Source: Phycomyces blakesleeanus NRRL 1555(-) (taxonomy: Eukaryota > Mucoromycota > Mucoromycetes > Mucorales > Phycomycetaceae). From it: a stretch of DNA of 64,000 nucleotides. This document shows positions 20,068 to 23,554 of the stretch, one piece after another. Position 1 is the stretch's first letter, and each line of letters begins with the position of its first letter. The stretch covers positions 1,913,223-1,977,222 of the forward strand of contig NW_017265135.1 of NCBI RefSeq assembly GCF_001638985.1. Reading direction: 5' to 3'. The translations under genes and the position numbers were made by a program. The notes under the pieces are model-generated. The model was given only the letters and a program-made list of their open reading frames with translations, was not told the origin of the DNA and made no database searches.

Positions 20068-21817
20068 ATGCCTTTTATCAAAGCTCGATCCATGCAACGT
20101 ACCCACCAGGTCGAACAAATAATCACAGCTCTCTCAAGAAACGACATTTCTTCTCTCAGGTCACTTGCACGACAGCCAGGAGGCTATGTTCATGACACCT
20201 TGAGGAAGCTTGTATGGTAATTCCACACTTGTAGACACAACCACCAATGGCTCATTTACTTTTTTTTTATCTTATTTATTCTTTAGGCCCATCTTACTTC
20301 ATGCTCATTACGGCTGTTATGTAGATGAGAAGGGTAGTGGTAAGAAGATAAATAGACTTACTACCTGGATAATATATAATTATAGTTATGTTTATTAGAA
20401 AAAGATTTAGCTGATCCGGTTCAGATAACAAAAGACGTAGAACGATCCCTATACTACTATCCACAAGGTATTAAGAAAGAGAGAAATCCCCCCCCTTTAT
20501 TACACAATTATAAATTGTAAATGTATATATAAATAAATAATAACAGTAATAAAATAAAGATATTTCGCCTATGCTCAAGGCTCACAAGCAACAAGAGCTT
20601 CATCGGATGATTGTTGAAATATTGTGGAGAAATCCAAGATTGAAATACTACCAGGCAAGCCCTATTGAATGTATTTTATTTACACAGTAATTAAGATTAA
20701 TAATATTTGTATTCTTCCAGGGATTTCATGATATATGTACATGCTTTTTGTTGGTACTTGGGAAGAAGAATGCTATTCCAGCCACAGAAAATGTTGCTCT
20801 ATTCTTCTTAAGATATCCTTTTTTGTTGCTGTTGTTAATATTAAATGTTTATGAGATATATTAATTGATCTAAATATTATGATCCTTAACCATTAGCTTA
20901 CAGATGCAATGTTGGACTCATTTGATCCAGTATCAAAACAATTACGTCTTATGAGCTCTATTATTGAATACGAAGATCCAGAACTCACATCTTTTCTTGA
21001 AAGGTAAAAATAAATAAATATATATTAAAATACCTATAAAAATAAAAATAAGAAAAAAGGAATGATTTTTGAAACAATTAGATGAGACATTTCTTTTTTC
21101 TTTGTGTTTCTTAAATTTATAGAAATTATTCTTTAATGTTACAGGTCAAATATAATGCCGTATTATGCGTTGAGTTGGATCCTGACTTGGTACAGTCATG
21201 ACTTTGAGGACTTTAGCAAGATTACTCGTCTATTTGATCTGTTTGTAGCAAGTTCACCTCTCATGCCAGTATATGTAGCAAGTGCGGTATGTTTTTTTTT
21301 GTTTTTTTTTTAAAAAGATATATGTATTTTTTTGTGTTTGATTTAATATTAAACCTAAATTTCAGATCACTCTCCTTCGAAGATCTACTATACTCCGGGC
21401 AGAGCCTGACCTTGCTCACTCTATAATCTCTCACATCCCACATGATATCAACATTGATACAGTGATACAAAAAGCGGTGTCGTTAGAAGAGCGCTACAGT
21501 GCCCTGGAACTTCAAAAGCGAAGTGGCATATGGTTACATGATGAGTAAGGAATCCGCACAGTGCATATTCAATCAATCAAAAAAAGAAAAGAAATTAGGA
21601 GCGGCTCGGAAATAACTGCTCCATTATTATCAATCTTAGGTCGGTAGTCAATACTTGGTACCGTGATTGGAGTCATATGGGATGGAACGATGTACCAGAT
21701 AGTATAAAGGCCGATAGATACCTCAGCCATGGAATCCCAAAGGAAGAATGGGAAGATGAAATGCTCACAGAATGGATGGAGAGACGACGGAAATGGTTTG
21801 GAGCTATCGACTTGTAG
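20068..21817 (+). CDS. TBC-domain Rab GTPase-activating protein, TBC1D20/Gyp8-like
   Basis: Nine exons (20068-20216, 20287-20339, 20399-20467, 20560-20654, 20721-20812, 20902-21003, 21145-21286, 21366-21544, 21640-21817) give 352 residues. The catalytic Arg-finger motif ITKDVER (IxxDxxR) and Gln-finger motif YYQGFHD are both intact, so it should accelerate GTP hydrolysis on a Rab. TBC1D20 and Gyp8 act on Rab1/Ypt1-type Rabs at the ER-Golgi. FFLRDAMLDSF matches the family's LRD.M region. Intron 4 is GC-AG (CAG|GCAAGC) and intron 5 is AT-AC of U12 type. Unlike TBC1D20 and Gyp8, no C-terminal transmembrane helix is visible; the chain ends ERRRKWFGAIDL. A different-frame ATG upstream is ignored because it does not open into the TBC domain. 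Confidence 0.93.
20813..20901 (+). other. U12-type AT-AC intron in the TBC gene
   Basis: The intron starts ATATCCTTT, the U12 5' splice-site consensus, and contains TCCTTAAC, the U12 branch-point consensus. The probable branch A is 12 nt before the 3' end, and the intron ends ...CTTAC. Removing 20813-20901 joins TTAAG to AGATGC and restores the conserved frame FFLR|DAML. No GT donor exists at this place. Using the nearby AG acceptors instead would shift the frame; for example CTTACAG gives an early stop. Confidence 0.9.
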
Positions 21818-23554
21818 CTTCTCAATTTATTTTTATCTTTATTATATTCGTTAATCTCAATTACATTTATTTCAAACAAACAATCATATCATTACAATAA
21901 AAAACTCCAATCAACTTGGCCAAAATACATGAAACAAGGCACAAAACGACATATTGGACCACGCACATGATTGAAGATAATCTGTAACTATAGAAACGTA
22001 TTGTTTTCTCCTGGTTCCCAAGCCAATGACCTTTTGTTGTTGTTTTTGTTGTTGTTGTTACTGTTATTTTTAGTCCACACCATCCAAACCTATAAAGCCG
22101 TATCACAAACAGTAATAGAAACAAAGCTGTACCATTGACATGATAGCCTCCGCACAGTCCTCTATATACTTATCTATTTATATGTATATATGTATATATG
22201 TATATGTACGTATGTATACATGTATGTATGTATTTGAGTAGCTAATGTTTCCGTATTACATACTAAATACTCAAAAATAATAATATTTTATTCATGTAAT
22301 TTTTCTTTTAAAAAAATAAGTGTCTTTATCAAATGTATTGCTGCAATCAATAGAAAACAATAGCACAAATATATATATATTGCATAGTGTAGGGAGTTCT
22401 TTATTTTAACTGTGTTATTATTATTGTTGCTCTGTGCAGAACACCATTTATTTATATAATATGCCAAGACACTTGTATCTTATTTATATACTCTATATTT
22501 TGATGACCTGGGGATTGTATCTCATATTGCTGCAGGTTATATTTATTATTACTATGCTTATGATTTTCATATATCCTTTTTCCATATATCTATTTAAGTT
22601 TCAACATATTAGATCCCTCAGAAAATAAGAATAAAAGAAAAATAGATGGCATGGAGCCAATTTAAGCTTTTCCTTTTCCTTTTCCTTTCTTTATACTTGG
22701 TGCATATTAATTACCCAACTTTAACTAAACCAAGTAAAAAATATAAAATAAGATAAAACGGAATAAAGCGATTGCCTGTCCTTGTTCTGCTTGTTCTGCT
22801 TGCTTTGATTCTTTTGATTCCTTTGAATATACTACGGTGATGGTATAAACCGTATATATCAAATTAACTGAACTTACCAAGTCTGTCAATATCAATGGCT
22901 CTGGGCGTCATTGTTTGTTCATTTGTTTATCATTTGTTTGGGACGTCAGTGCACATCTTCTGACTTTTGCCGCCTATAGATGGTTTTGAAGTTTATCAAG
23001 GATTTCTCTGAGACTTTTTCTAATGACGTGACTGGTCATCTACTTGTACAGGATGCCAAAGGTCTCCCTGAAATCATCAATTGTTTCTCATTTTATTTTG
23101 ATGGTGATAAAGGCATAAGAAGCAAAAAAAATATAATTTAAAATATAATCACGGTTTATTTATCTATTTTAAAAAAATAACTAGCAGTATGTACACAGGC
23201 ACAGACACAGGCACAGACACAGGCACAGGAACAGGCACAGACACAGACACAGGAACAGGAACAGGCACAGGCACAGGCACAGACACAGGCACATATACAT
23301 ATACATGCACATACACACACTATTTAATACCATGCTATCGGCCCTCAATAATTTATTTGTAGATTTATAAAGTCCTCTCCTCCCAGTATTAAACTACTAT
23401 ACATAACTTAGCTCTTTGTCGGTTGCATTAATTCTTTTCTATGTTCAAGACTAGTACTTGAAAAAATAAACAAACCTCAATAGATAGACCAAATACCCGA
23501 ATAATATTATGAAAATCATTTTTTTCAAGATAGGTTATTATACAAAAAATGCCG

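Follow-up and report, generated by a model that had tools for sequence, protein, structure and literature searches.

Evidence for a U12-type AT-AC intron shared by two TBC1D20-like genes of Phycomyces blakesleeanus

Positions 20813-20901 of the forward strand in the window analyzed here, by which we mean the whole stretch of 64,000 nucleotides, very probably constitute a genuine U12-type AT-AC intron of the P. blakesleeanus TBC1D20/Gyp8-like RabGAP gene, a reading to which we assign a probability of about 0.96 on the evidence of the sequence. The main new result, and the part most worth keeping, is that a paralogue of this gene shares the AT-AC intron.

The host gene, which we built from the sequence, spans 20068-21817 (+ strand) and comprises nine exons and eight introns that together encode 352 amino acids. 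Exon 1 (20068-20216) begins with ATG and is followed by exon 2 (20287-20339), exon 3 (20399-20467), exon 4 (20560-20654), exon 5 (20721-20812), exon 6 (20902-21003), exon 7 (21145-21286), exon 8 (21366-21544) and exon 9 (21640-21817), which terminates in TAG; all lie on the + strand. Seven of the introns are GT-AG or GC-AG, and intron 5 alone is AT-AC. Intron 4 (20655-20720), which follows exon 4, is of the GC-AG type (CAG^GCAAGC, with ^ marking the junction), and a public model of the gene, P0002, reads into it. The 352-amino acid protein contains a RabGAP-TBC domain (PF00566, E = 1e-24), and its nearest solved structure is that of human TBC1D20 (4hl4, E = 7.3e-50, and also 4hlq), with TBC1D17 next at 3e-4. 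The preliminary description had called this a fungal TBC1D20-like gene and had pointed to the Mucoromycota, and it was right on both counts. Residues 60-251 align gap-free to 4hl4, and the junction at residue 153 lies inside this block (fflrdamldsf over hhlrdfmdptm). A homology search returned 102 proteins and showed that the open frame has orthologues across Mucoromycota. A public P. blakesleeanus protein, P0001, is identical over all 352 amino acids to the AT-AC-spliced product; when viral contigs were scanned with P0001, no relatives were found.

The intron is 89 nt long, with its letters read directly, and interrupts codon 153 in phase 2. Its left edge reads AAG^ATATCCTTT, so that the 5' splice site ATATCCTTT occupies 20813-20821 (+) and conforms to the U12-type donor RTATCCTT. 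The branch-point element TCCTTAAC lies near the 3' end at 20883-20890 (+) and conforms to TCCTTRAC, and the second A of this element, at 20889, is 12 nt before the final intron base, the C at 20901. The 3' splice site AC (TTAC^AG) is placed at 20900-20901 (+) by the sequence and the gene build, and the right edge reads TTAC^AGATGC. The donor, the branch word, the 12-nt distance and the terminal AC are all as the preliminary description had them. Excision joins FFL-R-DAMLD with Arg at codon 153 and regains the conserved frame, also as described: 352 amino acids, ungapped to human TBC1D20 over the junction. When intron 5 is kept in, a stop is reached 16 codons past codon 153. A second exact copy of ATATCCTTT is present in the window at 22571-22579 (+), 3' of the gene, without a nearby TCCTTRAC.

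The further claim that no GT donor is available was too strong. Within 20721-21003, 17 possible introns with GT-AG or GC-AG ends and a length of 38 nt or more leave the frame open, though they are unfit for the conserved protein. The alternative that they would allow is a major-spliceosome intron with other boundaries (for example, 20793-20896 or 20754-20896). None of the 17 yields 352 amino acids, so each drops or adds residues inside a block that is gap-free against human TBC1D20 and common to many Mucorales models. A public model from the same assembly, P0002 (PHYBLDRAFT_179197, NRRL 1555(-), 326 amino acids), would favor such an intron, because it lacks exon 5 and reads ASPIEY in place of the 32 residues G124-D155 of P0001 (GFHDIC...FFLRD). 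We infer that P0002 reads on past exon 4 and resumes at 20904 through a GT-AG junction whose donor lies in intron 4, as expected of gene-finding software confined to GT-AG introns; both the join and its cause are part of that reading. An origin of P0002 through an intron at 20737-20903 was rejected, since the letters ASPIEY correspond to reading into intron 4 with exon 5 skipped. Given that the P0001 model is the AT-AC product and that the paralogue retains, at the corresponding site, both the donor ATATCCTTT and the terminal AC, we consider other boundaries very improbable. Recognition of the AT-AC intron amends the public NRRL 1555 model of this gene, from which exon 5 is missing.

The second P. 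blakesleeanus TBC1D20-like gene encodes P0058, which is 41% identical to the window protein, and lies at C18:207386-209259 on the - strand (loci L028, L029, L031-L034 and L037). Mapping of its exons reveals a 77-nt AT-AC intron, AAG^ATATCCTTTATTACAAAG...TATAATCTTGACTTTATGCTAACTTAC^AGATGC, at FLR^DAM, near 208.2-208.4 kb of contig C18. This intron keeps the donor ATATCCTTT and the end CTTAC, and its position and phase are identical to those of the window intron. The branch elements, ATCTTGAC in the paralogue and TCCTTGAC in the window, differ at two of eight bases, and the interiors of the two introns are no more alike than shuffled sequence. The five other introns mapped in the P0058 gene look like GT-AG introns on inspection, the exon edges there being approximate. 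We selected 35 of the 102 proteins by hand for a maximum-likelihood tree, rooted at the midpoint, in which each paralogue clade contains Mucorales as well as Umbelopsis, with Basidiobolus and chytrids apart. Support is 100/100 for clade A, 100/98 for clade B without Endogonales and 82/62 with them, and 98/96 for A and B together. Because the AT-AC introns of the two genes agree in position and phase, the intron is most simply taken to be older than the duplication. On these sequences, the simplest history would be a single AT-AC intron that predates a duplication in the ancestor of Mucorales and Umbelopsidales, before the Umbelopsidales-Mucorales split; parallel gain or gene conversion would be a less simple reading of the shared intron. 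Its retention in both paralogues offers a clean case for asking why minor introns last and escape conversion to the U2 type.

The preliminary description had predicted that U11, U12, U4atac and U6atac snRNAs would be found elsewhere in the genome, and Rfam matches support this in part. Single genome matches were obtained for U6atac (58.1 bits, Rfam cut-off 33) and U11 (56.3 bits, cut-off 39), both over the cut-off, and for U12 (46 bits, E = 1.5e-6), which is under its cut-off of 53. None of 14 prokaryote control genomes matches the U11, U12 or U6atac models. U4atac (RF00618) gave no genome match at the default setting or at E = 10, in a search without a positive control; at E = 10, 11 of the 14 prokaryote controls match although none would be expected, so weak matches at that level are noise. 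The U11 match starts at its 5' end with AAAAAGGGC, the U12 match contains GAGUAAGGA and the U6atac match contains GAAAGGAGAGAA, which we take to be the snRNA recognition elements for ATATCCTTT and TCCTTAAC. By eye, the 5' splice site is complementary to the U11 5' end AAAAAGGG and to the AAAGGA element of the genome's U6atac, and the branch-point element is complementary to GUAAGGA of its U12. The U11 match (locus L003, 1501-1796, - strand) is long relative to the 134-position Rfam model, with approximately 160 extra nt in the first hairpin that form mostly a homopyrimidine/homopurine stem, and this extension could be real; the locus folds very stably (MFE -126.9, z -7.8). MicroRNA matches in the U11 locus were rejected, as they are under their cut-offs and lie within the homopyrimidine/homopurine hairpin.

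The suggested search for U11-specific proteins gave a mixed picture. The C-terminal part of PDCD7 (U11-59K) is matched over the cut-off (profile positions 253-306 of 306, E = 8.2e-7), and in PDB the PDCD7-like genome protein again matches PDCD7 (E = 0.0029). The genome also has a CHHC zinc finger belonging to the U11-48K family, over the cut-off and unspecific: the family is over the cut-off in one of the 14 prokaryote controls, and the PDB matches of the finger are nearer to GTSF1 (2.2e-6) than to U11-48K (0.051). We therefore did not count U11-48K as evidence for a minor spliceosome. No members of the SCNM1 and CCDC84/CENATAC families were found in the genome, in searches run without a positive control.

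Duplex energies bear on whether this AT-AC intron might instead be removed by the major (U2-type) spliceosome. Such handling has been suggested for AT-AC introns of C. elegans, in which minor snRNAs are seemingly absent, according to the available text of PMC3033335. The donor of intron 5 is the U12 word ATATCCTTT and pairs hardly at all with U1: compared with the other seven donors of the gene, its duplex is least stable with the U1 5' end (-0.2 kcal/mol) and most stable with U6atac (-6.9 kcal/mol). With the strict U12 branch element at 12 nt and the minor snRNA matches in the genome, major-spliceosome removal of the intron appears extremely improbable. The U11 energy at the intron 5 donor is -5.4, with that at the GC-AG intron 4 stronger at -9.9, and 814 of 9,129 sampled window 10-mers equal or better it. 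U12 reaches -8.7 in the last 40 nt of intron 5, the best of the eight introns (next, -7.7), a value equalled or bettered by 179 of 2,204 sampled window 40-mers. The U11 and U12 duplex energies are thus not rare in themselves against the window.

Neither splice word is rare alone in the window, where RTATCCTTT is seen twice (2.15 expected) and TCCTTRAC six times (3.96 expected). In the 53.5-Mb genome, the pair of ATATCCTT and TCCTTRAC at intron spacing is found at 22 places and the reversed pattern at three; one of the 22 is intron 20813-20901. Scaled from the reversed control, a 64-kb window would hold approximately 0.004 matches by chance, a figure that does not yet require a correctly spaced AC or recovery of the conserved frame. 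The ordinary frequency of the single words might speak for a fortuitous match in sequence that is retained, pseudogenised or non-coding. We regard such a match as scarcely credible in view of the open 352-amino acid frame with orthologues across Mucoromycota, the genome-wide enrichment of the word combination (22 versus 3) and the intron common to the paralogue.

An AC or AG follows the branch A by 8-22 nt in 17 of the 22 pattern loci, with no such acceptor in the other five (L005, L010, L011, L014 and L023). For each of the 17, we chose the join with the greatest open-frame extension to both left and right and set no minimum length; the shorter side spans 12-454 codons, and the best join ends in AG, not AC, in two (L009 and L019). 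Pfam was run on 13 of the 16 loci besides intron 20813-20901, leaving out L016, L018 and L019. After removal of the segment, matches span the junction in five of the 13, four of them over the curated cut-off: DCP2 (L024, E = 2.8e-32), Glyco_transf_22 (L021, E = 9.2e-27), Npa1 (L017, E = 7.2e-16) and Alg6_Alg8 (L020, E = 1.2e-13). The fifth, LSM12_LSM (L025, E = 2.6e-5), is under it. No significant Pfam family was obtained for the other eight loci sent, and a portion of the 22 may therefore be fortuitous, in line with the control. The same strict pattern applied genome-wide to GT-AG U12 introns gave four matches versus three in the control, which is no excess; given the introns reported from ESTs (PMC2846911), it is probably too strict for this class.

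The intron may also have a wider history. We suggest, tentatively and with some doubt, that the AT-AC intron at the FxLR^DxM codon of TBC1D20 could be an ancestral eukaryotic minor intron that has kept its AT-AC ends in the two Phycomyces genes and perhaps also among Endogonales and streptophyte algae. Among the protein models, that of Jimgerdemannia (P0064) has FFLR-YPFL where the junction falls, the residues obtained by translating straight through AG^ATATCCTTT, and that of Mesostigma (P0096) has HHFR-YPP. The models of Spinellus (P0003) and Chlamydoabsidia (P0026) have R-Y-AMLD for R-D-AMLD at the junction; judged from these protein models, R-Y-AMLD would be the product of splicing 2 nt off, as AT-AG, at the AGAT repeat. 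The models of relatives are broken at the AT-AC junction in 6 of 61 cases and at intron 3 in 10 of 61, which is no excess, and for this reason we dropped annotation breakage as an indicator that relatives carry the intron.

The mechanism would be ordinary minor splicing. U11 would pair with ATATCCTTT and U12 with TCCTTAAC, U6atac would then take the place of U11 at the donor, the branch A at 20888 or 20889 would attack, and the exons would be joined at AC^AG, restoring codon 153 (Arg). These pairing steps and the splicing itself are drawn from the known minor-spliceosome mechanism; what our analysis itself shows is the sequence and its reading frame, the matches to snRNA genes, and the paralogue.

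A literature search returned no paper tying TBC1D20 to a minor intron, the papers on TBC1D20 and U12 being off-topic by title; PMC5604411 is a paper that matched Mucoromycota and the minor spliceosome. Other fungi have minor introns with consensus elements as well. According to the available text of a 2023 report (PMC10639083), Rhizophagus irregularis and Basidiobolus meristosporus have 205 and 249 minor introns, respectively, and approximately 20 are cited for P. blakesleeanus; the two retained paralogue introns sit in a species for which few minor introns have been reported. All four snRNAs are present in Rhizophagus in that account, whereas our Phycomyces search found no U4atac. In this search outcome Phycomyces resembles another member of the Mucorales, Lichtheimia corymbifera, for which the text available from a 2014 report (PMC4133162) gives four of five AT-AC splicing RNAs as found and U4atac as undetected, with the third stem of U12 atrophied and the second half of U6atac divergent. 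The closest comparison is within the species itself. Bartschat and Samuelsson (2010; PMC2846911) reported U12 snRNAs and U12 introns of P. blakesleeanus, and from 47,847 ESTs the predicted introns numbered nine AT-AC and eight GT-AG, or eight and 12 by a second method. As here, those introns have RTATCCTT donors and the U12 branch element; unlike here, the available portion of that report makes no mention of a shared intron in TBC1D20 paralogues. Since U12 introns of P. blakesleeanus are already in print, the surprise is small, and the sequence of the window intron marks it as a well-supported further case of a known intron type in a species known to have such introns.
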